A DNA stretch of 64,000 bases from Isoetes taiwanensis. Its lineage: Eukaryota > Streptophyta > Lycopodiopsida > Isoetales > Isoetaceae. The DNA is taken from positions 2,638,852 through 2,702,851 of the forward strand of contig JAJEKV010000015.1 in NCBI GenBank assembly GCA_021234155.1. The letters run 5' to 3'. Numbering within the stretch: position 1 is the first letter of the stretch; each line of letters opens with the position of its first letter. The notes below the pieces were generated by a model. It saw nothing but the letters and a program-made list of their open reading frames with translations, searched no databases and had not been told where the DNA came from. Below are positions 2,922 to 62,214 of this stretch, one piece after another. Both the position numbers and the translations under genes were made by a program.

Positions 2922-3247
2922 CGGCTCGTCCTTAAAGACTTCCGTTCGGGTTCGTCAATAGTTTCATCCTCTTCATATTGATCGTGATGCAATATCTTCA
3001 TATTGGTGCTACCGGGCTTGAAATTCACGCGATTTATAGGTTTCCCTTTGCTCAGAACTTAGAACTAATGGATCGGGATGGAGACCGGCTCAATGAGTTC
3101 ATTAAACCGAGTAACGATTAAACATCATGTCAAATAATGTAATAAGTATAAAATACATACAACCATCTGCATAGACTCATTTAATGACAAAAACATATTT
3201 TAAAAAAAAAAAATGCTCTTTATTCCCTTTTTTTTAGTACAACAATA

Positions 3248-3835
3248 CTATTGTTCCATCTCAAATGGGAGAGGTCTATCATAGCGATAGTTGATGAATA
3301 ACTCATCTCCAATGTTTATGCTTTTAATAGCACACACCATGATAAATCTGCCTTTTACATATCTTGTAAAAAAATCTTCCTCCCCTCCTTGACACTCTAA
3401 AAATTCACAATTGTATTGTTCACGGTTGTCAATAGAACTGTTGATGAACCCCGCAATATTGCCATGAACCCCCGGGCCGACCATCAATAAACTTCAACTC
3501 CTCATCACATGCCCCCCACGCCTATCGACGTTAAAGATTGGAATTCATTCCATAAATCCTCATACGCCAAGCATATTTAGTCAAAGTTTGCCAAGTTTTC
3601 CAATCGCATTTCGGGACCTGATATGGCATTAATGGAATGTGGGTTCCTCGCCCACTTCTATACGCAAGTGCTTCGAGATAAGGTCGTGATCCACTTTTCG
3701 ACAAATGCGGTCCGCGATAATGATGTATCTTCTTCCCCAATAAGCAAATTCTTGATCCATAGGGATAGGTAAGCCCATCGGCCACAAGCCAAATGTCTTG
3801 CGGTCTCTAACAAAGGGTCGGACTAATCTTTGCAA
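3248..3835 (-). pseudogene. SET-domain-like remnant
   Basis: The minus frame at 3487-3248 reads GPGVHGNIAGFINSS, then YNCEFLECQG, RFIMVCAIKSINIGDELFIN and YRYDRP. This resembles the C-terminal half of a SET lysine methyltransferase domain, where the N..RFINHS motif binds S-adenosylmethionine and GEEL.. .Y holds the catalytic tyrosine. The HSC of the canonical motif is replaced by SSI. Upstream, 3531-3835 is open in two overlapping frames (GLWPMGLPIPMDQEFAYWGRR is one), so an earlier part of the protein is probably frameshifted. It lies just 5' of the CACTA transposase on the same strand and could be a captured gene piece or an independent remnant. Confidence 0.5.
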
Positions 3836-20929: not shown

Positions 20930-20933
20930 GTAA

Positions 20934-20954
20934 GGGTAAAAGAAAGCTAGGGTG
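20934..20954 (+). repeat. Left terminal inverted repeat of the DNA transposon
   Basis: Twenty-one bases starting GGGTAAAAG and ending CTAGGGTG, preceded by the GTAA target-site duplication. Exact inverse of 30947-30967. Confidence 0.9.
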
Positions 20955-20957
20955 ACT

Positions 20958-20975
20958 TACATTTGGCCAAATGTA
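20958..20975. repeat. Perfect 18-base palindrome inside the left end
   Basis: TACATTTGGCCAAATGTA equals its own reverse complement and lies 3 bases inside the TIR. It may be a transposase-binding site. A counterpart occurs at 30912-30929. Confidence 0.9.
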
Positions 20976-21248
20976 GAGTAAGAGATGTATCACATTTCAA
21001 ATACATAACCGTTTTTTCAGTATGTACATAATAGCTATATTATGGAATCTTTTTTTTTCGGAACTACTTGCCACGTCAATTAAAACGCAATCATGAAGCA
21101 GATTTCAATTCCCGCCGCTCTAACCACTCCAAGAAACGCCTGAACGTTAGGAGAATTTCCCACTTTCTGGCTAAAACTTCGCCCAGCTCCAGGATTTCCC
21201 TCCTTCTTGCCAGAATTCCTCCAGCTAACCCTAAACCACGCAAGAACC

Positions 21249-24072
21249 ATGATGAACAATGAAGGAACAGAAATGGCGCAAGAAGATTGCAATATCGGGA
21301 ATGTGACAAAGAAAATGAAGCGTAAGATTGATGAAATTTGCAAATTTATATATGATCAGGTTCAAGATTTACGTCCTGTGCAAAGGAGAGCTTTAGCAGT
21401 GAAAACTGTTCGGGATGAAAGGCTGCACTTCTTTTTTGAACCTGCCATTGGAAATCCAAATAAGCAAGCAATTCAAGGATACTATGCTAAAAAATATCCG
21501 TGAAGGTCCCCAGGAAGTGAAACAAGCAAATAGCAATGATAAATTAGCGCCTAAGCATTCCGTTATCAATGATTGTTGGTGAGAATGGAAAACTCAGGCA
21601 AAAAGGAGTAGCCTCCAGAATTCTTCAAGTGCAAGCAAGAAACCTCACAAAAGCTGCAATTAGAAGAAAGCGGATGTCATTATCAGGTGCTAATATGTGG
21701 GCACTGGCAGGAAGGCAACCCAGGGCAGACATGCTTCCGGAATCAACCAAGCAGGTTGGTAAATGAGTTTTGGTTAACCCACACAAAAACTTCTCCAAAG
21801 TACGGGGATGTCGGGAAGAAAAGGAGACTTCCAATCCGGTTTTTGGACATGCCCTGTGTCAGTTTTAAGTCTTTTAATCCTCTTTTTGCAAGCTTGATAG
21901 AAGCTAGCTTCTCATTGCATCTGGATAAGTTTAGTAATCCTATTTGCATTCCATGCAAGGGATGTATATGATATACATTGAAGTACATCCAACTCTGATG
22001 AATTCTATTTTTACACTTGGAGGTACTGAGTGAGCTATGTTTAACAGGAAAAGTACTTGGATGTACTTCCACTTACATCCAATGTGTCATAAGGCAGAAA
22101 ATGTGTTGAAAGTCAGGCTGTGTGATTATAGTCTTGATTTTTGTAGTTCCCAAGTACATTATAGTACATTTTAAGCTTTCCTGATCTCAAGATAGTTTTG
22201 AAAGATAGGGTGATACATAAAAGTATTTAAATGTACTTCCTTCCATAAGAAAAGTATGAAATACATACATCAGAATCTGATGACACCTTCTGTGACCGGG
22301 TACATATTGAGTTTTTTATGTACATCTGGAACTCTTTGGAGTACATTATTTATACATTTATACATATCATTTACATGGTATGTACTATGTTGTGGTATAG
22401 TAGTTGAATGTATATCAAATCATGATCTGAGTGCCATAGAACTAATGCAATGTCTGCAACATCTTTGAATTCGTAAGTAGTTCTAATTTATATCTTACTT
22501 ATACATGCCGCTTTTTTCCTTGCAGAGTGAATTGTATGAGATGTTCAAAGATGAACATCCTGAAGTGAAGATTAGCATCAGAAAGTTCGAGCTGCTTAAG
22601 CCTACGTGTGTGAGAAGGTTGAAAGAGAGGAACACATGCTGCTGCGTGAAGCATGAACAAGCTGATCTATACAGAAAAGCTTTTAGCGTCCTGAGGAGCA
22701 AATTTCATGCCAATTGTACATGTTCTTGTGGTGTTTGTGCAGCAGATGAGTACAATGGCATCTGCCAAGCTCCTTCTAAAACATTTCAAAATGTTGGTGC
22801 TATGTGGAGAGCTACGGTCTGTGACAAGGAAGGCGAAGAGTGGCATAGTTTGGACTGTGTCAAGGGAGAGTGCCAGAACTGTGGCACTGAAAATATTCAA
22901 ATCTGTCCTAAGGAGAAAGAGTCGCAGAATGAGAACATTGAATGGCAAGTTTACAAAATGCATTGAACGAACCTTCCAAAGGCGGCACTTCAAGGAGGTT
23001 GAAGCTTGTTCTTGAAAAAGCGGGACTCCAGGTACATTGCTTGACAAGATGTTTCAGCACCTTTCAAAGTTCACTATTCACAACTTTTCAGCAAGTCGGC
23101 AGAGCAAACAATTCAGGAAATCAGTGCAAAATTTGAGGGATGATTCTGTTTTGTCAGTAATGGACTTTGCAGAGAACTACACTTTGCAGCCATTCAGGGA
23201 GGTTCGGTCCGAAAGCATTGGAACAATGACCGTGATAACTATTACGGTGCATATAACCATGATGAAAGTCAATGGCGAGCTGAAAAAAACTGTTCATTTG
23301 TATGTTTCCGATGTTATAAAGCATGATGCTTTCTTTGTTCAGGCTGCACTCAAGAAGCACCATATTTGGATGATGCAAAAAGGTTTTGGCCACATCAAAT
23401 ACCATGTCATGTGGTCTGATGGGTGTGCTGCTCAGTTTAAGTGTTCTCGAGCCTTTTATTTGAATGTGGCCCAATATTATAACAGGTATAAAATTAGGAT
23501 GCAGTGGAATTATTTTGGCTCAGGCCATGGAAAAGGAGAACATGATGGGCAGGCTGCTTTGGAGAAAAGGTTCCTAGCGCAGGCGAGCAAAGGAAAGAGA
23601 ATGGTGTTCCGATTTTGGGTGCCAACTCTGCTTGCACTTTGCTGAGACAAAAGAAGTGCAAAATGGACAGAGTCATATGGGAGATGATGGCAGAAGACAT
23701 TAACAGGGACCCTCGTTCAGATTGTGAGACATTGCCTGGTACTCTAGCTATACATTGTGTGTCTGCTATTAATCCAGCTGACCCAACACTTGTCATGTAT
23801 AGATCCCTGTCATGTTTTTGCAATGGTTGCTTGAATTTCAGATGGGGAGAATGTGAGAATCTCGAGCATTGTGGTGCGTGGAAGCTGCACAAACTGGAGC
23901 CTAGTTCGGCCCAGTCGGCGAACAAGAAGAGCTAGTCGATTTTTATGCGGTGATGAGCAAGAACTATCCGATGTACTCCAAATTGGAGACATATTTGCAT
24001 CTTTTGCTGCTCCGGGGAATCATGAAAATGTTCCATACGTCCTCCTATCGTGAAGGAGATGCATATTCTTGA
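21249..24072 (+). CDS. DDE-type transposase with cysteine cluster (introns, four apparent frameshifts)
   Basis: Start ATG at 21249 (MMNNEGTEMAQEDCNIGN). The first part ends RFLDMPC at 21857. A 668-base intron (GTCAGT to TTGCAG) joins it to SELYEMFKDEHPEVKIS at 22526. Next come Cys-rich CCCVKH and CTCSCGVC, then a catalytic-type core: VMDFAENY (about 23160), YVSDVIKHDAFFV, WSDGCAAQFKCSRAF (about 23412) and FGSGHGKGEHDGQAALEKR (about 23515). These motifs recur in large animal and lower-plant transposase families with SDG..AQ.K blocks. I cannot name the superfamily with certainty. Frame changes occur at two A-runs (about 22958 and 23018) and at two GGCGA sites (about 23583 and 23914) where GGCAGA would restore the frame. 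With these the protein runs to the TGA at 24070-24072. Parts of 21500-21570 also shift frame. Confidence 0.75.
21858..22525 (+). other. Transposase-gene intron dense in GTACAT/ATGTAC motifs
   Basis: Intron with a GTCAGT donor and a CTTGCAG acceptor. It carries more than a dozen TACAT/ATGTA words (GTACATCC, ATGTACTT, GTACATTA, ACATGGTATGTAC and so on), much denser than in the exons on either side. The same word family fills introns of the minus-strand gene at 28050-28170 and 28900-29370. Confidence 0.65.
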
Positions 24073-24637
24073 GGAAGATGTGATCCAAATATATGACTAT
24101 GGAAATAGAATGTTTGAACTTAATAGTTTCTAATAGTAGGGTGACATGTTATGGTTATAATAGCAAAAATGGTCATTACTATCATGTCCAATAAAGGCAC
24201 AAAGCATAAGTACAAGTTGTTGGATGACAAAATAGTATTAAAACCGTGAAGGATTTTTTATAAGGTACAAAAATTGGAGCGGGTTTTAACAATGTTGGAT
24301 CCTTCGTGAAGGGATGCATATTCAACAAATTGGCGACTATGGAAATAGAATGCTTGCTGGTGAAGGGGTTATAGCTGGTCATTACTATCAAGCTGCTACA
24401 AGGCACAAAGCATAAGTAAGTTGTTGGATGACAAAATAGTATTGGTACCCGGTGAATGTAATTGGAGCAAAAGTTCACGATCTGGTGAGTCAAGCATAAG
24501 TTGAAGGGGCCGCGTCACGACATATATGATCACACGAGAGGTGCATGACATGCTTATATCAAGCCTACCTGAGATTGTTGAGTGCACATGACTAAGTTCT
24601 ATACAAAGGAACTTTCATATTTGCCATCATCTTCTGT
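24073..24637 (+). repeat. Imperfect direct duplication downstream of the transposase
   Basis: Phrases at 24058-24250 (GGAGATGCATATTC, GACTATGGAAATAGAATG, GGCACAAAGCATAAGT, TTGTTGGATGACAAAATAGT) recur in the same order at 24306-24445. This is a partial tandem duplication of about 250 bases spanning the end of the gene. No separate gene is visible. Confidence 0.7.
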
Positions 24638-24993
24638 TATGTTGAGAAAACTAGTCGATTGCTGTAAGTTTTTTTTGTTATTTACTTATTTTTAATCGAA
24701 GTGCATTTTGATACTTCAATTTCGGTATCACGAATATCTTACGTGACCAAGCAAAATGTATATCGAGAAAGTACAAAATGTTTATCAATTGTTGCATGAA
24801 GAAGTTAAACTAGTACGTGTTATGTTGAGAAAACTAGTCGATTCTTTGCAAGTTTTTCTTATTTACTTTTAATCTGAAGTGCATTTTGATACTTAAATTT
24901 CAGTATCACACAATATCTTCTGTTTCCAAGCACAATGTATATCAGAAAGTACAAAATGTTCATCAATTGTTGCATGAAGAAGTTAAACTAGTC
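24638..24993 (+). repeat. Tandem pair of about 180-base units
   Basis: Unit 1 (24638-24819) and unit 2 (24820-24993) both begin GTTATGTTGAGAAAACTAGT and end GAAGTTAAACTAGT. Several differences are CTG/CAG in one unit and CG/CGG/CGAG in the other: 24696 against 24874, 24723 against 24901, 24764 against 24943. Confidence 0.9.
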
Positions 24994-26960
24994 TGTGAAC
25001 TTGTTCTGTTATAATGGATATCAATAGCTTTTCTTTTGATTCATGAAACAAAGCAGAAAGTGGAACATGTATGGAGACAAAAACTCTTGTATTACATATA
25101 TACAAGATATACAACCTGGTCATATCAGATATGATGCCAATATATACAAGTCTGTTGTTCATGTTTCCCATCGATCCGAGCCATCGGATCGCCATTCTGG
25201 GAAAGGACGAGCCCCTATATTAGGCTAGTTCCATTCTCAGGCCGGTTATCGGCGTCTTCTCACAGCAGCATTTTCTTCGTGCTCGTAGCTTCCCCCCCTT
25301 CCCACCCTACTGCGTGGGCGTGTACGTCTTTTTCATTTGTATTAGTATTGGTCCTTGCTCTTTTTGTGGTTTTTCACTTGTGGGTGTCGCTTTTGCCTTG
25401 TTGCTGTTTCCTTGGCATTTTCCTGTGTTTTTCTCCGCTTGCGGGCGATGCTGTTTATTTCCACCTTGAGGGTGATGCATCTTTATATATCATGTTTTCC
25501 ACCCGCTGGGTGATGCTTTTTCCACCTTGTCGGTGGCCTTTATCTTTTTTGTTCGCTCTTTTTCCGCCGATTTTTATGCCTTATCTCTTCCGGCTTTCTT
25601 TGATGCGGATTCTTTTTATGGCTAGGCTTGTTTCTCGACTCTTTACGGGTGTTTTTTTGAGTTTTTGGTCTTCTGAGATTTCGCTATCTTCCACGGCTTT
25701 TGGGGTCCTGGCGGTTTCGTTAAATCATCCTCGTTGTTACATGGGGTTTTTTCGCGGTTGTTTGGGGTCGTGCTTCGGTTTGCCTTCAAGGCTCGTCCGG
25801 TTTTCTCGCTCTCTCTAGGCACCACATTCGGGAGGTTGGTGGCGACCATTTCTCATTAGGGTTTTCCTCGAAACCCTTAGAAGGGCGGGTTTTTATCCGA
25901 TGAGAACTTGTCGCCATTGCCCTCTTATCATGCCTTAGCACATTTTCTTTTTTTGGGGTAGTCCGATATTGTTCCTATGTTCGGCTACCCCTCTCTCTTC
26001 TTATACATTGTATACTGCTGCTGTGATGAATGACAAGCCTATCTATTTTATATTAACATTAATTTACATTCAAAATCTGGTCACAGCCGATGTGAAGCCA
26101 GTACATACTATTCTGCTGTTTCAATATGTTACTTTCTTGCAGCTTGCCAATAGCCTGGACATGCCATCTCTGTCCTTGTAGCCCTCTAAAAGCATTTGCC
26201 TCCAAACAGCTGTGGTTAGTACATCAGTTGGATTGCGTAAAGGATTCTGCTTCACATCTTTGTTGCAGGTGTCGGTGCTATCAACAAACCCTCTAGCCAT
26301 GGTTTGAAGTGTCAAAGAGACACTGTGTCTTCAACATCACTTTGCCCCGCCATGAAGGTGGGCATATGCAATTTTCGTTGGGATTGAAGAGCATCTTGTA
26401 CTCGGAGTCGTCTACTATTAGTGTGTTCTTTGTCATTCACAATGCGGATACTTCTCGTTATATAAACTCAATTGGCTTCAGATACAAAGGTTTGTCTTCA
26501 CATCTTCGCAATCAGGAAAGGCGGATCCAAACGGTGGCTTCCATCAAAGGTGAACCTTAAGTCCCTTATCTCTGCGTCATTGTGAAGATTTTATCCACTA
26601 CTCTTGAAAGGTTCCATGGAGCTATTGATGACCATATTCCTACTTCAAAGTGTTCAAATACAAATTCCGTGAATTCGCCTAGGTGGGGCCTTAAAAACAA
26701 CACTTTCTTGCCTATTATGTCATAATTTCCAACTAGTTGATCATCGATACCAAAGTCCTATGTATTTGTTTTGCCAAAACATTATTGATATCAAACACTA
26801 TCAACTTTTTTAATACACCTGATATGAAAGAACATGCAATTTATCAATAAAGTATGGTGGAGTTGAATAAAAAGAGATTTTATTCATTAAAATTCAATGA
26901 AAAAATGTGTATTTTATAATCAAATAGTGTTCAGCATTGACAATAGGGATAGGTTGTTTC
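24994..26960. other. Spacer between the convergent transposon genes
   Basis: The part at 25279-25990 is T-rich with a 179-codon plus frame full of Phe, Leu, Ser and Trp. It contains degenerate repeats of the type TTCCACCTTGnGGGTGATGC, so the frame is probably compositional. 26100-26560 has short open stretches on both strands with no recognised family. 26760-26940 is AT-rich. Confidence 0.45.
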
Positions 26961-29900
26961 TCAGCCACATTTATTAGTACCAGGTAATCTAATAGTTTCG
27001 GGTGCGATGTGAATGTGGTCTAACTCCTGAAGTAGTGCTCGGGTGAGAACATCACGACGATCCTCCGCATACTTTGGCAAGAACCAGTTTCGGGTAATCT
27101 GCAAATGTGACAACAATACTTACATAATAAGTATTAAAAACCATTTGTTTGCAAGACAAAAGAAGTGAGACACTCACATTGGTAGTTTTACCACACACGA
27201 TTGTGTCTACAAACTTCTGCATATAAGCTTCAACATAGAGGCCACATGAATCCCCATCTTTTCTTTGTGGACACTTATGAATCTTCACTGGCGGTGAAGG
27301 ATTTTGTCCATGCTTCAAAAGTGGGACACTCGACACAACGCGTGCCATAGTGAGGATGTGGAGCCTGCAAAAGACCAGATCTATTTTGTAGCAAATGAAT
27401 GAAAAAAGCTGCTAATATGGTATCCAATCTACTCAATATTAATAAAAGGAGATGTGAAATACAAAATACCTCTTAAGTGCAAGCATGTCAACGTCAATGT
27501 CCCGAGAATTGAAGATCTGAATGTTGATGGTGTTCTTACTCTTAGTAAGTGCCATGTTGAAGATGGCCAAAGTGTGATGTTCAGTAACTCTACATAGCAT
27601 TGGAATCATGATCCATCTGCACTTCAGCCAATTTATCCCTGTAAGAGCTACCTTTACAACATCTCTTCCACTTTTCGGAGGCTGCCATAGATTTATCTTT
27701 TTCGCTTGCCTTGGCCCATCTTTGCAAATTCCATGAAGTCAATTGGGAAGAACCAGACGTCGGCCTTCTTATCATCTGGAACACAGAGCTGCAGATACCT
27801 ATAACAAGTTGAAAAGGATAAAATTACTAACTTGACTTACACATACAAATGAACAAGTTCAAAGTCCAGTACCTGGCATACATATCCACATGCCGGTTGG
27901 AAAATTTTCCCACATCCATGTCCAGCACATCTTGTTCAAATAAATAACACTCCATTTCAGGCAAAGATCCTGGGAAAATCCTTGCCTTCTTGAGCTTCAT
28001 CATTCGGTTCAGCAAGGCATCGTATGGCCTGTATTCAGAACTGCAGTCTGGGTTCAATGACCAGTACATTTACACAAATCATCTACATTCGTCTACTACT
28101 ATCCATATTATTTTACAGTTTTTAACTTGGATACTAGATGTAAAAAAAAATGTAAGATATGTAGATCAAGTTACCTGTAGAGATCATTCTTCTGCTCTGC
28201 TGATACTGTTTTCTCGGAGTCAGTATCCATTTCCTTCCCTTCTTTTTTGGTTTCCTCACTCAGATTCTTATTAGGTCCAGAATCCTCGTCTTCAACCTCT
28301 CCTGATTTCTCATTGTGATGAAATTCAGCGTCCTTTGCTATGTCAGAAGCAATATTTGACACAAACTTAAAAGTATCCTGCTCTACATGTTGATGCTCGG
28401 AAGATTCCTCTTCATTAGGACCTGTAAACATAGGATGTCATGGATTTCTCAGCTGCTGTACACTGAAATAAAATGCTTTCTTACCTGTTTCTACTGCTTT
28501 AATTGTCTTCTTCTGTGGCTTTTTAGGCGTGGACTTCTTCTTTGGAGTCATTTTTCTCGCTTTGCCTTTACTTTTTGAAGATGTGGGCCCTAGCCTCGCT
28601 CCCTCAATCTCGAGTTCCTCGTCATAATATGGAATGTCACCATGCGGACACGAAGTGCCGCCCTCCTCAACCTTTGTACCACCGCAGGAATAGTGATTTT
28701 GCTTTTTCCTTCAATCACTGCTTTCTTTCCCTCGGCTACATCTTGCACCTCAATTTTCTTTGGAACCTCCAAAACTGTGAAAACCGAACCAAGAATAAGA
28801 AATTGCTTCTTCTGACACAATGCAAATTGAGTTTGAAAAAAGCTTTGACCGTGGTGTAATTTACGCTGCTCAAGTAGTTTTTGGCACTTTGAAGCTCTAA
28901 AATAAATCACATAAATCGGATATCGGTCTCAAACTAATCAGTCTCTAACCGTTTACGTACATATCAATAGATGTACATATTACTAGAACTGATCTACATT
29001 GAAGTACTTTGAGTACATACACATGTAAATGACTATTTATCTAGATGGAAGGTACATGTAATGTACATGAATGTGCTCCATAGTATGCACATGTACACAT
29101 CGGACATTACATAAAATACCTCTAAATGTTTACGCCACAAAACTCATTACACAACTCCTAATTTTATGTATTTAAGTTCTACATTTAGACCCCCTACTTT
29201 GTGAATGTACAACATGTATGTAAGAAACACATATATGTATGACATGCAAGCCAAGGAACTATAAGTATAAAATAACCAAGATTACTCCTACATCTTTGTA
29301 GCAAAACCTTAAGTGCAAAGAATCTACATGTAAATGGATTCTACATGTACATGGATTCTACATTGCAGTAATCCCGGGTGCGACAAATTGAACATAAATC
29401 ATGAAATAACCGCTTACCTCCGATTGTACACACCCAAGATCTTTGAAATGTTTTCGTCCCATTTGCATGCTCTTGGGCGGGATAGTCCAGCCAGAAATAG
29501 AATATGAGAAAAAGAAGATGAAATGAATGCTCGCATGGAGCAACTAGGATAGGTTCATTATTAGCAAAGCCATTACTACAAAACACACATCCATGCAATG
29601 AGGATATGAATTTTTCTTCATTTGAGAGATCACTAAGCTTGTTTTTGGGCTGAAGGAGAATTTTGAGAATGCATCATGTACTTATGCATATCATCAAGCC
29701 GTCTGCATAAAGCATTCAAAACCGAACTTTGTGAGCCTCCTCAAGTTCTCGCAATCCTCTTTTCACATAACTCCTTCTCCCGAATGGCTTTCTCCAATGG
29801 CTCCCGAATTCTCTTGACATTTCTTCCTTCCCGGTTCTATCCCTCATCAAAGGTCAACCTCTGCTGCACCGGTCTTGATGTCTCTCTTATTCTCGCTTGG

Positions 29901-30636
29901 CGCCGCCGAGAACACTATTGATGTCTTCTTGTATCCGTATGCTAGGTCCTCTTCATGTGCATCCTTTCTTCCCCGAAATCTTATTTATATTGTCACGTAA
30001 TTACATGTGCGCTGAATTTTCGGTTCTTCAACCTTGGATGTCTTGCTAATTAACTCTCCATGACACTCTTTGCAAATGAGTTTACGCAAATTCAAGCTCT
30101 TCCTTAGGGTAAAATCCTTGCTGAAATTTAGGAACCTTGGATGTGGATTTAGAGGTCCCAATTTCTTTCGTAATAATAGCAGATTCTTTTGCTCCTCCCT
30201 TTGCCAAATCTTTGGCCAAAACTTTAAAAGTATCCCAATCTACTTTTTTTGTCAATTGAAGGGCAAATGCACGAGCAAAGTACTCAGGTACATGGCGATT
30301 TGTGACCTCCCGCTTACCAAAAACAATTTCATAATGTTTGTAGAAGTTCTCGGCCCACTCTGGCTTCACGCTAGATTCTTTGAACCCCCGTATGTCTTTG
30401 GGCATCCACTGCTCGTCCATTATCTGTTGTAAATCTGGAAAAATTTCATCTGCATTGACACATCTTACATGCTTTGCTTCCACAACAACGGGTTCTTCAC
30501 AAATAAGCCTTCTTTTTGGCCCTGGTTCCTCAGAAGTTTGAACCTTCCTCTTGTTTTTTTCGGCTTTCTTGCTAGAGTCGGCTATTTTCAAATTTTTGTT
30601 TAATCTGGGTGACTTCCGGGAGGCAAAGGCGTCCAT
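26961..30636 (-). CDS. Multi-exon RING-like and Ulp1/C48-protease-like protein of the transposon
   Basis: The ATG at 30636 opens MDAFASRKSPRLNKNLK, a basic N-terminus with a nuclear-type signal (KKAEKNKRK). Its frame ends at 30082, after which a zinc-type CKEC follows in another frame. Farther on are a RING-like cluster (29341-29598), a Lys-rich linker (KKKSTPKKPQKK, about 28520) and an acidic exon (28175-28421). The C48 domain spans 27873-28040, 27470-27788 and 27178-27364, with the last exon 26961-27098 ending LPGTNKCG. Most introns have clean GT-AG ends. The catalytic region shows RVTEHHTLAIFNM (His), QIFNSRD where Asp is usual, and CPQRKDGDSCGLYV (Gln, Cys). Ulp1 proteases cut SUMO-like modifiers, and similar domains are carried by several plant transposons. 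Some exons read in shifted frames. Confidence 0.75.
27178..27364 (-). CDS. Ulp1-like exon with catalytic Gln and Cys
   Basis: Bounded by a TTTTGCAG acceptor (just above 27364) and a GTGAGTG donor (from 27177 leftward). Encodes LLKHGQNPSPPVKIHKCPQ, then RKDGDSCGLYVEAYMQKFVD. The Q.....D.CG pattern is the oxyanion glutamine and nucleophilic cysteine block of C48 peptidases. Confidence 0.8.
27470..27788 (-). CDS. Ulp1-like exon with catalytic His and Asn in place of Asp
   Basis: Starts LCVPDDKKADVWFFPIDFME after a TCTGCAG acceptor and ends LALKR before a GTATTT donor. The start, middle and end read in different frames, so two shifts are present. The last frame gives CRWIMIPMLCRVTEHHTL, then AIFNMALTKSKNTINIQIFN, which matches the W..P....HW.L......I..YDS block of C48 peptidases. 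The expected catalytic Asp is Asn (IFNS). Confidence 0.7.
28900..29340 (-). other. Intron-like stretch dense in ACATGTAC/GTACATGT words
   Basis: Contains GTACATATC, ATGTACATATTAC, GTACATACACATG, GTACATGTAATGTACATG, CACATGTACAC and CTACATGTACATGG within 440 bases, and no open frame. It mirrors the motif-dense intron of the transposase gene. Confidence 0.65.
29341..29598 (-). CDS. RING/PHD-like zinc cluster of the same minus-strand gene
   Basis: Open frame with GCVFCSNGFANNEPILVAPC, then EHSFH, and at the end CTIGG..LCSICRTRDYC. C..C...C.H..H...C..C resembles a RING-type cross-brace, though the second cysteine pair is irregular (HLLFLIF in place of a third C). Direct ATGTAC-type words crowd the sequence on its left side. 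Exon limits are not fixed. Confidence 0.5.
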   Translation of the reverse strand: MHGCVFCSNGFANNEPILVAPCEHSFHLLFLIFYFWLDYPAQEHANGTKTFQRSWVCTIGGKRLFHDLCSICRTRDYCNVESMYM

Positions 30637-30911
30637 TGCTTGGATTTGGGCAAGGATTTCGAGAAAGAAGAATAGTTACAGTCGAATTACTTCGTTGATC
30701 ACTCACAAACACAAAAAATTGGAACGACGGCAAATTTTTTTTGGCAACAAGAAACACTTCGCAATCTCCCTCCGAAAAATTGCAATGAAGGTCCGTTCTG
30801 GTTGCCACTGCCACTCATAATTTTGAATTGCCGACGTGGCTACTCCTAATCATTACATATCCCAACTAACTAAAATTCAAAAAAATAACAAAAATGGGTG
30901 CCTACATGCCC

Positions 30912-30929
30912 TACATTATACATAATGTA
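30912..30929. repeat. Palindrome inside the right end of the transposon
   Basis: TACATTATACATAATGTA has 8-base arms around a 2-base centre, and extends to GCCC...GGGC with one bulged base (30908-30934). It is the counterpart of the 18-base palindrome at the left end. Confidence 0.85.
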
Positions 30930-30946
30930 AGGGCATTTTTTTTAGA

Positions 30947-30967
30947 CACCCTAGCTTTCTTTTACCC
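30947..30967 (-). repeat. Right terminal inverted repeat of the DNA transposon
   Basis: Exact inverse of 20934-20954, followed by GTAA (30968-30971), which matches the four bases before the left TIR. Confidence 0.9.
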
Positions 30968-30971
30968 GTAA

Positions 30972-34459: not shown

Positions 34460-35573
34460 TAGACTTCTTGAGTTCTTTCAACCATTTGGTAGTAGTATCG
34501 GGGTTCCTCAGGGATGCCCTCTCTCCCCAACATTGTTTGGGCTTTACATTGATCAATTGGAAAGCTGGCTTGCTGATAATGGGGGCGACAGAGCTCAGCT
34601 TCTCCACCAGATCATCAGGCAGTTAATATATGCTGATGATGTGGGCCTCCTAGCTTACACACCAACCAGGGAAAAAATTAAGGAACGTTTATATTCAAAG
34701 TGGTGAAATAGACTTGGCTAAAGTATGCGAAAAGTTGAGGTGAAAGCTTCTAATGTTTAGCTAAACTTTCTAAATTTTGCCACATGTACCTTCTTACGTT
34801 TGGCTAAACTTTTATTTAAAAAAAAAAAAATCTTCTATCCTTTGACTATTTTGCACTAATTCAAGACCTAAATATTAACTTACTAAAATAAATATGAAGG
34901 CTATAGGATAATTTGGCTAAAGTACACTAAAATTTGACGTAAAAGCTTCTAAGTTTTGGCTAAACTTTCCAAATTTTGGCAGTTACACTTTCTTGCAATT
35001 AGCTAAAGTCGGACAAAAATGGAGGTGGGGCGTGAAATAGACTTGGCTAAAATTTTGTTTTTTTGAGCCCAAAAAGGGCCATAGTTTAGCCAATTTTTTT
35101 CTAAACAAGGCCAAAATTTTGCCATTTAGCTAAGTTTAGCCAAGACGGGATTCTTGCCTCTTTAAAGGGCGGCCCTTAATTGCCACATTGTCTATTTTTA
35201 AAAGGTGGTCAATATGGATGATGCTCGTCTCTCTAACCTAGCTTATATCATGGCAATGGGGCCGCAGCGCCTCAAGACCTGCTGGAGGGAAAAGAGAGCT
35301 CAATGGTTGGCTAGATGGAATGTGCAGGAGCACAGGTGTATACATGTGCAAACAGAAGCAGATCGCTATAGCTTGAGGCAGTACCTTGACGCTTGCTTCC
35401 TTAGCAAGCTTTGGGACGCCAGTGCCCTTGAACAGGTCAAGACAGCACACTACCAGCGCCACATAAATCCCACATTGGAACGAGGCCCGCAATGCTACCT
35501 GCGTACCTACTTGCCCATGAAAAGGCGCAGACTCATTGCCTCCATTCGCACAGAAGCACACTTGAGCAGCTAA
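34460..35573 (+). pseudogene. LINE reverse-transcriptase fragment split by a MITE
   Basis: 34470-34700 reads VPQGCPLSPTLFGLYIDQLE, then LIYADDVGLLAYTPT, that is RT motifs B and C. A short element (34711-35146) follows. Then 35205-35573 reads ARLSNLAYIMAMGPQRLKTC, YLPMKRRRLIASIRTEAH and stops. Both parts resemble the LINE at 47430-50067 (QGCPLSPTLFGLYIDSLE, GPQRLKR, KKRRAIAAIRTGSH). The first part changes frame once near 34500. Catalytic YADD is present but the protein is far from complete. Confidence 0.75.
34711..35146. mobile_element. Short element with TTGGCTAAA terminal repeats
   Basis: Starts GACTTGGCTAAA and ends TTTAGCCAAGAC, a 12-base imperfect inverted repeat. The inside is made of repeats of the same words (TTTGGCTAAACTTTCCAAATTT, AAGCTTCTAA twice). 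It splits a LINE fragment, which supports insertion. TSD not resolved. Looks like a MITE. Confidence 0.55.
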
Positions 35574-35814
35574 TTAGTTTTCCATAATCAATGAATCGTA
35601 TCACCAGAGACCTGTTTCTGTCCTAAATTATTCTGAGAGAATGGATGGAAGATTCAAGGAAGATAGAATAAATATATGATAGCAAGTTTATCATTGTACT
35701 ATGCAGGTATGAAACATGTCATAATTTTACTCGATATCCGTGACTCACGGGATAAAGCAGATTCATGGAACTGGGGAAAAACGTACATTGACATAGAACT
35801 ATCCTTTCAAATAA

Positions 35815-36731
35815 TAAGAAATCAATTAGTGCCTCTCTTGTCCCTTGCAAAATGTGGTAATCCTCTTTGATCCAATCGACTGGCTTCAGATCGATGTAAT
35901 TCTTGGCATAGCACAAAATCAGTAATATATGTTCCTTAAAATGACAAGTCATTTTTATAAAAAGTGACAGAAAAAATGCACATTTGCTTTCTCAAGATCC
36001 TCTTGATACAAATAATATTCAAGTTCAGAGGCTGCCATTGGAATGTAACTGCCAAGTTCTTCTGCTTTCTTGATTTGATCTCTCAGAATTGATCTGGGAG
36101 CATGAAGAGCTAGCTCGTGGCTTTTCTTATCGGGTAAAAGCATGTTAGGGTGTCCCTTAAAAAGTATTATTTAGTGACTAAAAAGGTACCTAAAAAGGTA
36201 GCCAGGACTGGGTACTGGGTACCTGTATAATATCTCAATATAAGGTATGTTTTAGAACTTTTTATATATATATTGATCTCCGATAGCATTATCTTTATCT
36301 TAACATTGAATATTACCATGTCCTTGACTTTTATTTTGGATTTTTGTATTAGTTTTAATGAAAAGAAAAATGAGAAAGTACCCAGTTCAGAAGTACCTAG
36401 TGTATGTACTTTTGCAGGTTCCAAAAGTGGTACACCCTAACATGCTTTTACCCTATCGACCACATCACATAGGACTAAAGCTATTTTTTCTAGCCTATAC
36501 TGAATCATTAGCAAAAACACCATATTAGGAAAAAAGAATACAAGGCTCACCTCGTTACAATGCGGACAGTCCTAAGTTGAGGAACCAGGTGAATATCCTG
36601 ATACCCAAGCTCCTAACTGACATACTTATACCATGAAACTGCCTCCATGTTTAAGTCGATTGCTAGTAGATATGAACAAGAATGAGTATCATCGCATCTT
36701 GTGCTTTAGAAAAGAAATGCCCAAAGATATC
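35815..36731 (-). pseudogene. Type-I glutamine-synthetase-like gene fragment interrupted by a MITE (copy 1)
   Basis: Three exon pieces run right to left. Exon A (36731-36551): HSCSYLLAIDLNMEAVSWYK, then YVS*ELGYQDIHLVPQLRTV. Exon B (from about 36490, with the MITE 36132-36453 inside): EKIALVLCDVVDKKSHELAL, then HAPRSILRDQIKKAEELG and ASELEYYLYQEDLEKA. Exon C (about 35925-35815): KNYIDLKPVDWIKEDYHILQ, then GTRE. These match in order the family blocks GY.DFHLVPD, ALVLCD, PRSILR.Q, ATELEFYL and W..EDYH.LQGTRE of GSI-type ligases that join ammonia or amines to glutamate. Exon A has a TAG (VS*EL) in both duplicate copies, probably an original TGG, and the N- and C-termini are missing. Splice sites A-B are consistent (GTGAGCC donor). 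Confidence 0.8.
36132..36453. mobile_element. 322-bp MITE with the same TIR type as the 10-kb transposon (copy 1)
   Basis: Perfect 22-base inverted repeats at 36132-36153 and 36432-36453 (beginning GGGTAAAAGCATGTTAGGGT). TSD TATC at 36128-36131 and 36454-36457. Compared with the 10-kb element the TIR differs at only three or four positions. Cutting it out with one TATC leaves VLCDVVDKKSHELAL in frame on the minus strand, exactly the expected glutamine-synthetase sequence, so the insertion boundaries are certain to the base. Confidence 0.93.
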
Positions 36732-37004
36732 CTGTTTTCATCAACAATGTAGAAGTATAACTCAGATATTCAAGACCCTAATATTATATTTGTAGATTTC
36801 AAGTAGATGAATTGAATTTTGTTTGCAGAGATCACTATTTTGCTTTAAGACCAGAAACCCCAAAGTAAATGGCTATAATTTGGTTGTATGCTCATAATAG
36901 TGGCTATAATAGTGGCACACCAAGCCTAACTTCGATCAGCACATCAAGCAAATAGAAACGAAATTGGTGAAGTGGCTAAGCAATCGAGAACTCTGGGACA
37001 GAAT

Positions 37005-37262
37005 TTATGCTCTGATGGAATCCAGCTCGATGGCTTCTATACCGTTATTGAGGGTTGAATAGAACTCCATTGTTTCTTTATCACCAAGGAGTATCCGACC
37101 CCTCCAAATTTGTCTATTTTGCGCCTCCAAATCTGGAACATGCTTGCAAAGGTGGGCTGCCCATATATCTGAAACAATATATGATACCACTTTTGAAAGG
37201 TAGATATGAGATAACACAGAATCTAGGATAATGTGGTGGTCTGTAGAGCAGAAAAAAAACAC
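37005..37262 (-). CDS. Unknown open frame conserved in both duplicate copies
   Basis: Reads SYIVSDIWAAHLCKHVPDLE, then AQNRQIWRGRILLGDKETME and FYSTLNNGIEAI, after an ATTGTTTCAG that could be a splice acceptor. Copy 2 (59321-59641) has an identical core with a different 3' frame (AIRAGF..) because copy 1 has CTCGATGG where copy 2 has CTCTGATGG. No family recognised. It could be an exon of a minus-strand gene. Confidence 0.4.
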   Translation of the reverse strand: MFFFCSTDHHIILDSVLSHIYLSKVVSYIVSDIWAAHLCKHVPDLEAQNRQIWRGRILLGDKETMEFYSTLNNGIEAIELDSIRA

Positions 37263-38407
37263 AAAGAATGTACCCTACTTGTTTCTTGAAAAAATCCAGG
37301 ATGATGGAAGAAAACTTACAGGTGATTCGTCACATTCTGGAGCCAACGCCACTGTGAGGAGCTCCGGCGATGGAGCCCTCGATCGTTTTGATGTCGGCCT
37401 TGGACGGAGTTAACAAAAGTAAATGGAGGGGTCTGAGGATAAATTTTGGTCGATGAATCATGAAGTTGTTAACTACATGTTAAAACTTAACATAACAAAA
37501 ATCAATGTGAAAGGGGGTTAAATGCCTAATTTAAAATTTGTTAAAAATTAATCCCTTCAATTTAACAAATTTCTTAACAAAAAACACGTGTGTTACTAGT
37601 TAACTTAAATTTTCCTAACTTAACAAAATTAACTCCATGGTGTGCTAAAAAATGAGGCATCCGATTTTTTAGAAGGCCTAAATTCAAATTTGAAAAGAAA
37701 TCAGGCATAGTTATTCAATTCATCTCAGCTCTACAGCAGCGTTCAACGTTCGTATGTAATATTGTCATTTTGTTTCTATCTGTATATTTCTTCTTCAATC
37801 TTTTTGGGTTGCCCCTAGGGGGGCAAACCCTCGTTTATGTGGGTTTGTGGGATATACTGAGTATATGCTGGAATATACTCAGTATATGTTGATGACTGCT
37901 AAAAACCCTTTGTTCCCTGTAAATGCACGATCAGTTGCGTTGTGGATCAAGGATGTTCTGGACCGGGTAACTGGCAGCTCCAATCTGATGAATAAGAACA
38001 CAGCCAGGGCGTGAACGGTGGCCGGGAGGGATCGGTTTATTTCGAGCAAGGGAGGGTCGTTTTAATAAAGGGTTTTAGTCTCTCTGTTGACTGCTTTGCT
38101 AGGTTTCTTGCAGGGACATGGCCGACTGCTTAATCGGCTTGCACTGCCATGGTCATGCTTGGTGGAGGCCTCTGGAACAAAGCTTTCCATGGCTAATCAA
38201 ATTTTGTAAGTATGTGTTTTATTTGGCATTTTCTACCTTATGGGTTCTCTTTCTGTCAGTCATATTTTCTAACGAAGTTTTCTTCCCGGGTTCTGTCTGT
38301 GCTCCGGTCCTGTTTGGTGTTCTCTGCATTTCCATGCCCGGTCCATTTGGTCCAACAATTTCGGTTTTAGGTTGTTGGTACGGTCGGTAAAGCTTCAATT
38401 AATTTTA
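37263..38407. other. No gene recognised
   Basis: AT-rich with AACTTAAC-type words at 37470-37640 and short plus frames (GDSSHSGANATVRSSGDGAL near 37340, present in both copies). Nothing assignable. Confidence 0.4.
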
Positions 38408-39840: not shown

Positions 39841-40389
39841 CAACATATAAAAATTAAATCCCCCAACACATAACAACCATTGACATTAACAACCAACACA
39901 TAACTACCATTGACATTAATTAACATAACCATTGGGTCCAACACATTTAAATTAAAATCCCCCTTAAACCCCCTTTGGTTTGGGTGCATATTCACACGGG
40001 GGGTGACTCCGGGCAACGAGAGCTGTTGGATAGGCATATTCACCCCTTATTCCTTAATCTATACCGTACGTAAAGTTCCTCGTTTGTGGGGTATGCAAGT
40101 ACAAAATTTGCTATACTGTATAATAAGATTTGCAAAATACTATAAGATTTCAAGTTTTAATACTATATGGTGTTGATTTCAGTGCGTGCAAAAATACAAT
40201 TATGAGGGCTCTCGCCGCCCCTACGCCACCCCCCGTGTGAATATGCACCCAAACCAAAGGGGGTTTAAGGGGATTTTAATTTAAATGTGTTGGACCCAAT
40301 GGTTATGTTAATTAATGTCAATGGTAGTTATGTGTTGGTTGTTAATGTCAATGGTTGTTATGTGTTGGGGATTTAATTTTTATATGTTG
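39841..40389. mobile_element. Foldback element with about 165-base inverted arms
   Basis: The left arm (39841-40005) begins CAACATATAAAAATTAAATC and ends TTCACACGGGGGGTG. The right arm (40227-40389) is its inverse with few differences, and the spacer is 221 bases. The transcript or single strand would form a long hairpin. No coding. TSD unclear. A duplicate copy lies at 62215-62760. Confidence 0.85.
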
Positions 40390-56829: not shown

Positions 56830-57965
56830 AACTTGCTTTCTTCTCCACTAGACTTCTTGAGTTCTTTCAACCATTTGGTAGTAGTTATCGGGGTTCCTCG
56901 GGGGATGCCCTCTCTCCCCAACATTGTTTGGGCTTTACATTGATCAATTGGAAAGGCGGGCTTGGTCGATAATGGGGGAGTGACGAGAGACTTCTCCACC
57001 GGATCATCGGCATTAATATATCTTGTTGATGATGTGGGCCCTCCAACTTACACACACCAACGGGGAAAAATTAAAGGAGCGTTTATATTCAAAGTGGTGA
57101 AATAGACTTGGCTAAAGTATCGCGAAAAGTTGGTGAAAGCTTCTAATGTTTAGCTAAACTTTCTAAATTTTGCCACATGTACCTTCTTACGTTTGGCTAA
57201 ACTTTTATTTAAAAAAAAATCTTCTATCCTTTGACTATTTTGCACTAATTCAAGACCCTAAATATTAACTTACTAAAATAAATATAGAAGGCTATAGGAT
57301 AATTTGGCTAAAAGTACACTAAAATTTGACGTAAAAGCTTCTAAGTTTTGGCTAAACTTTCCAAATTTTGGCAGAGTTACACTTTCTTGCAATTAGCTAA
57401 AAGTCGGACAAAAATGGAGGTGGGTGATGAAATAGACTTGGCTAAAAATTTTGTTTTTGAGCCCAAAAGGGCCATAGTTTAGCCAATTTTTCTAAACAAG
57501 GCCAAAATTTTGCCATTTAGCTAAGTTTAGCCAAAGCCAGGATTCTTGCCTCTTTAAAGGGTGGCCCTTAATTGCCACATTGTCTATTTTTAAAAGGTGG
57601 TCAATATGGATGATGCTCGTCTCTCTAACCTAGCTTATATCATGGCAATGGGGCGCGCTGGCGCCCTCAAGACCTCTTTGGAGGGAAAAAGAGCTCAATG
57701 GTTGGCTAGATGGAATGTGCAGGAGCCACGAGGTGTATACATGTGCAAACAGAAGCGGTCGCTATAGCTTGAGGTAAGTACCTTGACGCTTGCTTCCTTA
57801 GCAAGCTTTGGGGCCATGATGCCCTTGAAAGCAGGTCAAGACAAGACTACCGCGCCACATAAATCCCACATTGGAGCGAGGCCCTTAATGCTACCAAGGT
57901 ACCTACTTGCCCATGAAAAGCGAGACTCATTGCCTCCATTCGCATAAGCACACTTGGCGGTAAAC
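56830..57965 (+). pseudogene. LINE RT fragment split by a MITE (copy 2)
   Basis: Equivalent of 34460-35573. GGTTCCTCGGGGGATGCCC here against GGTTCCTCAGGGATGCCC in copy 1 breaks the VPQGCP motif, and later parts are frameshifted. Confidence 0.7.
57105..57537. mobile_element. TTGGCTAAA-ended short element (copy 2)
   Basis: Equivalent of 34711-35146, with the same ends apart from small changes near the right terminus. Confidence 0.5.
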
Positions 57966-58194
57966 TAATTAGTTTTCCATAATCAATGAATCGTATCACG
58001 AGGAGACACATTCTCGGTCCTAAATTATTCGAGAGAATGGATGGAAGATTCAAGGAAGATAGAATAAATATATGATAGCAAGTTTATCATTGTACTGTAT
58101 GGGTATGAAACATGTCATAATTTTACTCGACATCCAAGTGACTCACGGGATAAAGCGATTCATGGAACTGGGGGAAAACGTACATTGACATAGA

Positions 58195-59110
58195 ACTATC
58201 CTTTCAAATAATAAGAAATCAATTAGTGCCTCTCTTGTCCCTTGCAAAATGTGGTAATCCTCTTTGATCAATCGACCGGGCTCGGATCGATGTAATTCTT
58301 GGCATAGCACAAAATCGGAGAATATATGTTCCTTAAAATGACAAGTCATTTTATAAAAAAGTGAAAAAAAATGCACATTTGCTTTCAAGATCCTCTTGAT
58401 ACAAATAATAAGAGGTCGCCATTGGAATGTAAGCGCCAAGTTTTCTCTTTCTTGATTTGATCTCTCGAATTGATCCGGGAGCATGAAGAGCTAGCTCCGG
58501 GCTTTTCTTATCGGGTAAAAGCATGTTAGGGTGTCCCTAAAAAGTATTATTTAGTGACTAAAAAGGTACCTAAAAAGGTAGCTGACTGGTCTTGGGTACT
58601 GTGATAATATCTCAATATAAGGTATGTTTTAGAACTTTTTATATATATATTGATCTCCGATAGCATTATCTTTATCTTAACATTGAATATTACCATGTCC
58701 TTGACTTTTATTTTGGATTTTTGTATTAGTTTTAATGAAAAGAAAAATGAGAAAGTACCGATTCGGGGAAATACCTAGTGTATGTACTTTTGCAGGTTCC
58801 AAAAGTGGTACACCCTAACATGCTTTTACCCTATCGACCACATCACATAGGACTAAAGCTATTTTTTCTAGCCTATACTGAATCATTAGCAAAAACACCA
58901 TATTAGGAAAAAAGAATACAAGGCTCACCACGTTACAATGCGGACAGTCCTAAGTTGAGGAACCAGGTGAATATCCTGATACCCAAGCTCCTAACTGACA
59001 TACTTATACCATGAAACTGCCTCCATGTTTAAGTCGATTGCTAGTAGATATGAACAAGAATGAGTATCATCAGGTACTGTGCTTTCCAGAAAGAAATGCC
59101 CAGCATATCT
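58195..59110 (-). pseudogene. Type-I glutamine-synthetase-like fragment (copy 2)
   Basis: Same exons as copy 1. Exon A is better preserved here: YAGHFFLESTVPDDTHSCSY follows an AACAG acceptor, and the exon A-B junction gives IVTWLEK, with the family-typical W, where copy 1 has IVTRLEK. The TAG at VS*EL is shared. Exon B is damaged (AAGAGGTCGCC where copy 1 reads TTCAGAGGCTGCC). Confidence 0.78.
58513..58831. mobile_element. MITE of the GGGTAAAAG family (copy 2)
   Basis: The same insertion as 36132-36453, with TATC at 58509-58512 and 58832-58835 and intact 22-base TIRs (58513-58534, 58810-58831). Confidence 0.92.
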
Positions 59111-59320
59111 GTTTTCATCAACAATGTAGAAGTATAACTCAGATATTCAAGACCCTAATATTATATTTGCAGATTTCAAGTAGATGAATTGAATTTTGTT
59201 TGCAGAGATCACTATTTTGCTTTAAGACCAGAAACCCCAAAGTAAATGGCTATAATTTGGTTGTATGCTCATAATAGTGGCTATAATAGTGGCACACCAA
59301 GCCTAACTTCGATCAGCACA

Positions 59321-59641
59321 TCAAGCAAATAGAAACGAAATTGGTGAAGTGGCTAAGCAATCAGAGAACTCTGGGACAGAATTTATGCTCTGATGGAATC
59401 CAGCTCTGATGGCTTCTATACCGTTATTGAGGGTTGAATAGAACTCCATTGTTTCTTTATCACCAAGGAGTATCCGACCCCTCCAAATTTGTCTATTTTG
59501 CGCCTCCAAATCTGGAACATGCTTGCAAAGGTGGGCTGCCCATATATCTGAAACAATATATGATACCACTTTTGAAAGGTAGATATGAGATAACACAGAA
59601 TCTAGGATAATGTGGTGGTCTGTAGAGCAGAAAAAAAACAC
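59321..59641 (-). CDS. Unknown open frame conserved in both duplicate copies (copy 2)
   Basis: Contains DIWAAHLCKHVPDLEAQNRQ and continues NNGIEAIRAGFHQSINSVPE to a stop at 59321, longer than in copy 1. Not recognised. Confidence 0.4.
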   Translation of the reverse strand: MFFFCSTDHHIILDSVLSHIYLSKVVSYIVSDIWAAHLCKHVPDLEAQNRQIWRGRILLGDKETMEFYSTLNNGIEAIRAGFHQSINSVPEFSDCLATSPISFLFA

Positions 59642-62214
59642 AAAGAATGTACCCTACTTGTTTCTTGAAAAAATCCAGGATGATGGAAGAAAACTTACAG
59701 GTGATTCGTCACATTCTGGAGCCAACGCCACTGTGAGGAGCTCCGGCGATGGAGCCCTCGATCGTTTTGATGTCGGCCTTGGACGGAGTTAACAAAAGTA
59801 AATGGAGGGGGGGCGAGGATAAATTTTTGGTCGATGAATCATGAAGTTGTTAACTACATGTTAAAACTTAACATAACAAAAATCAATGTGAAGGGGTTAA
59901 ATGCCTAATTTAAAATTTGTTAAAAATTAATCCCTTCAATTTAACAAATTTCTTAACAAAAACACGTGTGTTACTAGTTAACTTAAATTTTCCTAACTTA
60001 ACAAAATTAACTCCATGGTGTGCTAAAAATGAGGCATCCGATTTTTTTAGAAGGCCTAAATTCAAATTTGAAAAGAAATCAGGGCATAGTTATTCAATTC
60101 ATCTCAGCTCTACAGAAGCGTTCAACGTTAAGTATGTAATATTGTCATTTTGTTTCTATCTCAGATATTTCTTCTTCAATCTTTTTGGGTTGCCCTAGGG
60201 GCAAACCCTCGTTTATGTGGGTTTGTGGGATATACCGGTATATCTTTGGAATATACTCGATATATGTTGATGACTGCTAAAACCCTTTGTTCCTGTAAAT
60301 GCACGATCCGGTTATGTTGTGGATCAAGGATGTTCGGACCGGTAACCGCAGCTCCAATCGATGAATAAGAACACGCCTGGGCGGAAGCGGGGCGGGAGGG
60401 ATCGGTTTATTTCGAGAAAGCAAGGGAGGGTCGTTTTAATAAAGGGTTTTAGTCTCTCTGTTGACTACTTTGCTAGGTTTCTTGCGGGGACATGGCCGAT
60501 GCTTAATCGGCTTGCACCGCCATGGTCATGCTTGGTGGAGGCCTACGGAACAAAGCTTTCCATGGCTAATCAAATTTTGTAAGTATGTGTTTTATTTGGC
60601 ATTTTCTACCTTATGGGTTCTCTTTTCATCACCATATTTTCTAACGAAGTTTCCTTCCGGGTTCTCATTGCGTTCGTCCCTGTTTGGTGTTCTCTGCATT
60701 TCCATGCCCGGTCCATTTGGTCCAACAATTTCGGTTTTAGGTTGTTAGTGCTGGTCGGTAAAGCTTCAATTAATTTTAATGAGAGACGGAACTTGTAGCA
60801 TAGTTGATGGCCCGAAGCAAAACCGTAGATGCCTCTAAACTTCAAGAGTGGCGTAAGGCTACGTTCACCTTGTGGACAAAAGGCTCCAAATAAGCCGGGA
60901 TACCTTAGTGGAAGCATTTGGCAACAAGGGAAAGAGTCGCGAGTTTGCATTGAAGCGGCAAGTGTTTGATGTGACTGAGTGTTGGAATAGCAAGGTTGAA
61001 GGCGGTGAGTGTCATTAGAAGATCAAATGGCAAGATATTTGAAAGCATTAGCTCCTGATGTCTCTTATTGAAGATTGTGGATAGGTTGGAACTAGGGCAA
61101 CCTCTAGAAAGGGCTCCTACCGACCGAATTATTTCTCGCAAATATTAAATGCTATTGTAAATCAAAGTTTCTCTTTACCATATTATTATTGCCATTGTTT
61201 CGCTGCTATGAGACTTTGCAAGTATTCCAAAAGATGCCTTCACCGGAGAACCTGTGGAGATTGTAGAAGGAAACTCCATGTGAGTCTTTGGGCACTTTTT
61301 TGCAAGTTGGTACAGAACATAGATTTTTTGTATAGCTACATGCAAAGGAAAGGCAACATAGGTTTGATTCTCGCCTCGGGCGCATCATGCAAGTAGTCAT
61401 AGGTGTATGTCGGTATTTGCCTAAGATTGATTCATTGATGAATGCTTAAAAGCATGTCGGTGCAGATTGGAAAATGATGATGCCTGCATTTTTGGACCTT
61501 AAGGGTTGGCTCCGCACATAGCCCGCTATGCAAGGCCATTGTTTGTCTTGTAACGGGGTCTCTTTTGCTTTCTCATTTCCATCTTTAATTATAAGTTAAG
61601 GGAATAAATCTCTATGGCACATTATTCAAAAGCATTCATTGTTTAAAAGAAAACTATGTGATGCAATGCGGGAGGTGCAGGAAGATGCCTGTGATGATGT
61701 GATGTTGTCTATTTGCTAGTCACATTCTTGCCATCGCGGCAGGGAAAAGGTTAGCTTTGGTTCTCATTGTGAGTTTTTCGCATGTAGGTACCGCCTTTAA
61801 TAGAAGCGGATCTGGGGGAATATATGTGGGAATCAGAATCCTATCATCCTTCCTAGAACATTTAAGGTAAATTTCTTCTTTTAGAGTTTTGCCTCATAGT
61901 GAACACAACAAACATGCTTAAGCTATTTGTCAATGTGATAGTGTTAATAATAAAGTGGGCGGTATGCATTTTTAGGAGACATATATAAGCTCGGAGTAGA
62001 TCAATTTGCTAACCATGCGTAGTGAAATCATTCTACGGTGTATCGAAATACAAATACATACGACGAAGCTACTCTTGCTTTGTTAACGCCCACGACTTGG
62101 AGCAAAGTTGGTAAACAAAGTAGATTTGTTGCAACATTCCTTTTATTCCGTACCTTGTAGAAGCTCCATCATGAGCTCCATCCGAGTATAGAAATTATAT
62201 ATATGCATTTGAAT

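Follow-up and report, generated by a model that had tools for sequence, protein, structure and literature searches.

A DNA transposon with inverted ends and 4-bp target site duplications

In a 64,000-nucleotide stretch of the Isoetes taiwanensis genome (contig JAJEKV010000015.1; hereafter the window), a DNA transposon of 10,034 bp occupies positions 20934..30967 (no strand is assigned to the element, its insert, its duplicated target sites or the miniatures described below). It is bounded by perfect terminal inverted repeats (TIRs) of 21 bp, the left being GGGTAAAAGAAAGCTAGGGTG (20934..20954, plus strand) and the right its exact reverse complement (30947..30967, minus strand). The copies of GTAA on either side (20930..20933 and 30968..30971) form a 4-bp target site duplication (TSD). 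An earlier interpretation made without database searches (the sequence-only reading) had reported these ends and duplications, which we confirm, together with two genes pointing inward from about 320 bases inside the ends; their start codons lie at 21249 on the plus strand (about 315 bp) and near 30636 on the minus strand (about 331 bp). The plus-strand gene encodes a predicted transposase. The minus strand carries, in order, a gene for a RING-like/coiled-coil protein, Ulp1-like exons and a gene for a NIF protein, a homologue of FCP1/SCP-like phosphatases. The sequence-only reading had recognized the transposase and RING/Ulp1-like genes but missed the NIF gene. Six matches to the terminal sequence (at most three mismatches) occur in the window, compared with an average of 0.00 in 100 shuffles.

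We searched the window's own genome (1,658,258,908 bases in 1110 contigs) for copies. With the left 301 bp as query, the best 40 of 300 candidates, window included, are 97–100% identical, and with the right 301 bp the best 40 of 298 are 96–100% identical. At 8 of 8 loci, the window being one, the left repeat starts at the same base and the flanks diverge exactly before GGGT; in the right-end set, too, the repeat ends at the same base at 8 of 8 loci, window included. GGGT stands at both termini of the large copies examined. Ten complete copies were retrieved from the 39 others, chosen from the eleven best-scoring, and all ten have two perfect ends and an exact 4-bp TSD. Five additional end pairs (those with both ends present in the left-end and right-end match lists) gave three exact TSDs, one matching at three of four bases and one at two of four; the left repeat is off by one base in three of these five. 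Chance TSDs were considered as an explanation and rejected. The transposase core and RING-like gene lie within the shared ends in all 11 large copies (the window and the ten others), and the C48 and NIF genes in 10 of 11, the shorter copy C1044 being without both. The sequence-only reading had looked to genomic copies for deviating ends, other TSD lengths or separated genes, and had proposed a tabulation of TSDs; the copies read have the same ends, keep the genes together and have TSDs that are nearly all 4 bp (10/10 and 3/5 exact). The 10,034-bp sequence is thereby confirmed as a genuine autonomous-type DNA transposon with 4-bp TSDs.

The retrieved copies are 6,947–13,256 bp long, with 7 of 10 falling within 8,885–9,135 bp. 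A family size of 10 kb, as first proposed, describes the window copy but not the usual element of 8.9–9.1 kb. The extra length is mainly an 880-bp insert (25167..26046), missing from the sister copy taken as reference, together with a further stretch of some 210 bp around element position 3184–3395. The insert has 47% GC and begins CCCATCGATCCGAGCC.

The transposase gene

The transposase gene has a predicted first exon at 21249..21756 (plus strand, two frame breaks in the window copy, splice site predicted from sequence) and a predicted main coding part at 22527..24590 (plus strand, several frame breaks, 3′ end approximate). Frame breaks in the transposase and NIF genes of the window copy could reflect decay or the nanopore assembly, both origins being possible. 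The conserved blocks MDFAENY, SDGCAAQFK and HGKGEHDG, picked out in the sequence-only reading, indeed share one open frame (23016–23642), which overlaps an RNase H-type catalytic core at 23160..23579 (plus strand) with candidate Asp codons starting at 23163, 23418 and 23544. Residues D323, D415 and D463 are invariant across 47 transposase homologues. In a modelled moss homologue the fold is that of RNase H and includes an Asp-Asp-Asp triad; the model of P0030 puts D323, D415 and D463 at RNase H active-site positions. The modelling points to a transposase of the DDD type, in which the triad would be catalytic.

No member of the 47 matches a Pfam transposase family. At E ≤ 0.01 the set matches five families with one or two members each, none of them a transposase: DUF6597 in two homologues (best E 2.4e-4) and C48, CAMSAP_CKK, LRRC37AB_C and EthD in one each. 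A single search returned more than 200 homologues, of which the named ones come from seed-free plants and a charophyte alga. Given a family of this size without a Pfam transposase match, annotations likely miss the transposase. No relatives were found among 65 pattern matches in viral contigs, or among 58 pattern matches in the GTDB genome collection (pattern and tblastn searches), a scan that is weak for remote bacterial kin. Foldseek searches against PDB and against viral models returned nothing at E ≤ 0.001. In a tree of 32 transposases the protein from the window groups with five unnamed ones on a long branch; the support of 87/86 is too weak for use. One homologue, P0008, is a single chain of 1061 amino acids that joins a homologous transposase to a SENP1-like C48 protease; an association with Ulp1 is thus seen again, in a different arrangement.

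The RING-like, Ulp1-like and NIF genes

The RING-like/coiled-coil gene (29512..30636, minus strand) encodes a conserved N-terminal domain, a coiled coil and a RING-like finger. Its match to PF17123 (E 1.5e-5, 25.0 bits) is below the cut-off of 27, and its Cys/His spacing was judged by eye. The Ulp1/C48-like exons (26961..27639, minus strand) are probably the 3′ part of this gene. A C48-like core had been proposed here, and its signal is weak: the predicted exons of a sister copy, joined by X, match at E 3.9e-4, exactly at the cut-off of 20.7 bits, and one window exon is under the cut-off (PF02902, E 0.054). The sole match among solved structures (E 0.16) is not significant. By eye, the Ulp1-like part has a Cys and Gln region (CPQQKDGDSCG), a His, and an Asn where the usual Asp of the C48 motif is expected.

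The NIF gene lies at 26189..26745 (minus strand) and its frames are broken in the window copy, where positions 26566–26757 match PF03031 at 21.7 bits (E 1.7e-4), just short of the 21.8-bit cut-off. Copy C1035 (L027:4259-4984:-) scores well above that cut-off for the same family (E 5.5e-18, 65.6 bits). Among solved structures, sequence comparison ranks UBLCP1 and a CTD small phosphatase-like protein closest (E 1.3e-5). Among relatives with a name, FCP1-homology proteins of legumes are the nearest (32–39% identity), and one unnamed protein is 71% identical. Active phosphatases of this type have the nucleophile motif DxDxT/V; the sister copy has DINNV, in which the second Asp is replaced by Asn, and so departs from the active motif. 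Because both the Ulp1-like and NIF proteins are changed at expected catalytic positions, they may bind rather than cut.

Substitutions were counted by codon position in gap-free stretches against copy C1035; as copies share history, these counts are not independent. For codon positions 1/2/3 they are 28/48/86 in the RING-like gene, 2/5/21 in the stretch C48b and 33/30/56 in the NIF gene, which suggests past constraint on all three. Three pieces of the transposase (21/13/23, 33/21/27 and 26/31/35) have no clear codon-position excess, and the stretch C48a (8/22/4) has the reverse of the constraint pattern. The row TP_core, read out of frame, was left out of the comparison. The non-coding substitution level relative to the same copy is 3.2%.

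Related families in the same genome

A genome search with the moss protein, in which the best 58 of 12,195 candidates were scored, revealed several loci with stop-free frames of more than 600 amino acids. Unbroken transposase frames of 621 and 674 amino acids occur in L094 and L099. Two further families were read; another group (L096, L097, L098 and L100) was viewed within at most 1.5 kb around its transposase. Family 2 is represented by C23 (11,308 bp) and C1032 (11,084 bp), which are 98% identical across the first 6 kb and about 96% in later stretches. Its ends are GGGTCCAAGCACA, beginning with GGGT; the left and right repeats agree at 19 of 21 bases. Both copies have 4-bp TSDs (GCCA and ATAT). 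The transposase core is 45% identical to that of the window element in family 2 and 48% in family 3 (C1033).

On the opposite strand, family 2 has a RING-like gene (Pfam RING, E 0.23) whose N-terminal domain is 30% identical to that of the window family, and a NIF homologue. The latter is 23–24% identical to the window family (family 1) and to P0123 (E 2.5e-10 to 6e-16 in small searches), and alone has no Pfam match. C48 was not detected in family 2. In family 3 a convergent coiled-coil/RING-like gene matches BRE1 at 26.5 bits (E 6.9e-6), under the 27.9-bit cut-off, and neither NIF nor C48 was detected in the gene region read. Beside the family 3 element, open frames at L108:4635-6330 resemble, by eye, a Gypsy-type polyprotein.

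All three families share the N-terminal domain of the RING-like protein; no match came from reversed queries or from window sequence beyond the element. A transposase with a facing RING-like gene therefore occurs in 3 of 3 families read, with NIF detected in 2 of 3 and C48 in 1 of 3. As the RING-like gene is kept in all three and Ulp1 was not detected in two, the former looks like a core partner, with Ulp1 and NIF as looser accessories. The original proposal of a DNA transposon with 4-bp TSDs, a DDE/D-type transposase and a RING-like/Ulp1-like gene holds, and its suggestion of a poorly described or new plant lineage is one possible reading. It is the RING-like gene, rather than Ulp1, that recurs.

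Miniature relatives

A 322-bp miniature with related ends and TATC on both sides lies at 36132..36453, about 5 kb to the right of the large element, where the sequence-only reading had correctly placed a second insertion. Of its 21 terminal bases, 18 agree with those of the large element, and joining its flanks with removal of one TATC restores an open frame of 96 amino acids. A second copy (58513..58831) lies within a duplicated stretch (window 34632–37953 and 57027–60330, 92–97% identical) that has the same miniature at the same place in both parts; since it has the same flanks, it is no independent insertion.

With the miniature as query, the best 40 of 1,772 candidates were scored. The 39 other copies are mutually identical and one base apart from the window copy, although short-read polishing may have homogenized them. 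Their TSDs are exactly 4 bp in 38 of 39 and 3 bp in one, with none of 5 bp or more, and the 38 exact TSDs comprise 36 distinct words. The identical copies suggest that the miniatures moved very recently, and the system is therefore open to experimental testing. As the scored copies are the best-scoring ones, the age of the remaining copies cannot be deduced from them. The miniatures may be mobilized by the transposase of the large element; it is equally likely that a sister family whose ends are closer mobilizes them.

Comparison with known transposons and proposed mechanism

Set beside Sola by descriptions only, the element is most likely a member or a sister of that superfamily. The available parts of three sources (PMC10741241, PMC9033089, PMC6786969) describe Sola elements as having a DDD transposase, 4-bp TSDs, lengths of 2–9 kb with some above 15 kb and TIRs of 11–1124 bp, and report them from Physcomitrella (Sola1) and Azolla. 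TSD length, triad, size range, short TIRs and occurrence in seed-free plants are alike in the two. Here, 4-bp TSDs are found in the window element (1/1), its copies (10/10), the additional end pairs (3/5), family 2 (2/2) and the miniatures (38/39), with lengths of 8.9–9.1 kb in 7/10 copies and TIRs of 21 bp. The window element has a RING-like partner gene and a NIF gene, and neither is mentioned for Sola in the available parts of PMC10741241, PMC9033089 and PMC6786969. Among the matches listed from the open-licence literature, no title dealt with NIF genes carried by DNA transposons or with RING partners in Sola elements.

Mutator-like elements (MULEs), including plant ones, can carry Ulp1 (available text of PMC2836005) as does the window element, but have TSDs of 7–12 bp (available text of PMC10741241) in contrast to 4 bp here. 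KDZ, MULE and CACTA families are absent from the Pfam tables of the window proteins and homologues, which is weak evidence; for KDZ, the Pfam copy may lack the model. KDZ/Zisupton elements have a KDZ-type transposase and 8-bp TSDs, as against 4 bp here. RAG1-RAG2-like transposons, which have facing genes, a Transib-type transposase and 5-bp TSDs, likewise encode a transposase and a second protein in one transposon, a comparison limited to how the systems work.

We consider it probable that the window sequence is an autonomous-type cut-and-paste element with a DDD transposase, a RING-like core partner and Ulp1/NIF accessories, most likely Sola or a sister of it. As a many-copy DNA transposon, it would encode an RNase H-fold DDD transposase that binds the GGGT...TAGGGTG termini and attaches these to target strands whose cuts lie 4 bp apart, yielding 4-bp TSDs of no fixed sequence. 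The convergent RING-like/coiled-coil protein could be a BRE1-like E3 ligase or a scaffold that either assists the transposase or, at the ends of the element, modifies proteins of chromatin or repair. SUMO and CTD-type signalling might be tuned by the Ulp1-like protease and the FCP1/SCP-like NIF protein. Related miniatures were probably moved by the transposase of this family or a sister. A RING-like partner retained in families whose cores have diverged by half could be needed for transposition, a logic comparable to that of RAG1 and RAG2. Two points weigh slightly against this interpretation: RING matches are below the Pfam cut-off in all three families, and the cores are only 45–48% identical.

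A bolder version, which we regard as possible but doubtful, is that these elements form a distinct eukaryotic lineage defined by a two-protein system, in which a DDD transposase has an obligatory, tail-to-tail BRE1-like RING/coiled-coil partner and some families add SUMO-protease-like and CTD-phosphatase-like genes. If so, the element carries its own ubiquitin, SUMO and phospho-signalling kit.

There is also a real, if somewhat slender, chance that the element constitutes its own superfamily and has only the 4-bp TSD in common with Sola. The 47 homologues without a Pfam transposase match would fit this, as would the lack of relatives in GTDB, whereas Sola has been reported from bacteria (available text of PMC10741241). 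However, the element is Sola-like in the length of its TSDs, the type of its triad, its size and its range among plants, and the GTDB pattern scan has little power for remote bacterial kin.

Rather unlikely, in our judgment, is an ordinary, catalogued Sola1-type element in one more plant, with the RING, Ulp1 and NIF genes being captured host gene fragments. Its transposase triad, TSD length, size, TIRs and the Physcomitrella and Azolla range agree with the Sola descriptions available, and legume FCP1-homology proteins are the nearest named NIF relatives. Captured fragments would, however, be unlikely to recur convergently in families with such divergent cores, or to retain a common N-terminal domain, and the 71% identical unnamed protein, whose source is not known, suggests a NIF clade of transposon type.

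The sequence-only reading had treated Ulp1 with a 4-bp TSD as unusual, but Ginger1 combines both (available text of PMC2836005), and its integrase-type fold resembles that modelled for the homologue. In the same text, Ginger1 is described with TSDs of CCGG or CCGT/ACGG, TGTNR termini, and a Gypsy-integrase-like transposase that bears a C-terminal Ulp1 or OTU domain in one chain. Here the TSDs are variable (CCGG, CCGT and ACGG are absent among the 36 words of the 38 exact miniature TSDs), the ends are GGGT, Ulp1 is encoded on the opposite strand, and the Pfam tables of the window proteins and homologues contain no integrase family. With TSD sequence, termini and transposase type all different, Ginger1 identity is highly improbable and was rejected. 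That the plus- and minus-strand genes come from separate elements, one nested in the other, as the 880-bp insert inside the window copy might hint, was also rejected and has almost no likelihood, both genes lying between the same ends in 11/11 copies.

Elsewhere in the window, positions 39850–40381 contain a long inverted repeat with 134-nt arms (92%), which includes short repeats such as CCAACACATAACAACCATTGACATTAA and may represent a fold-back element.
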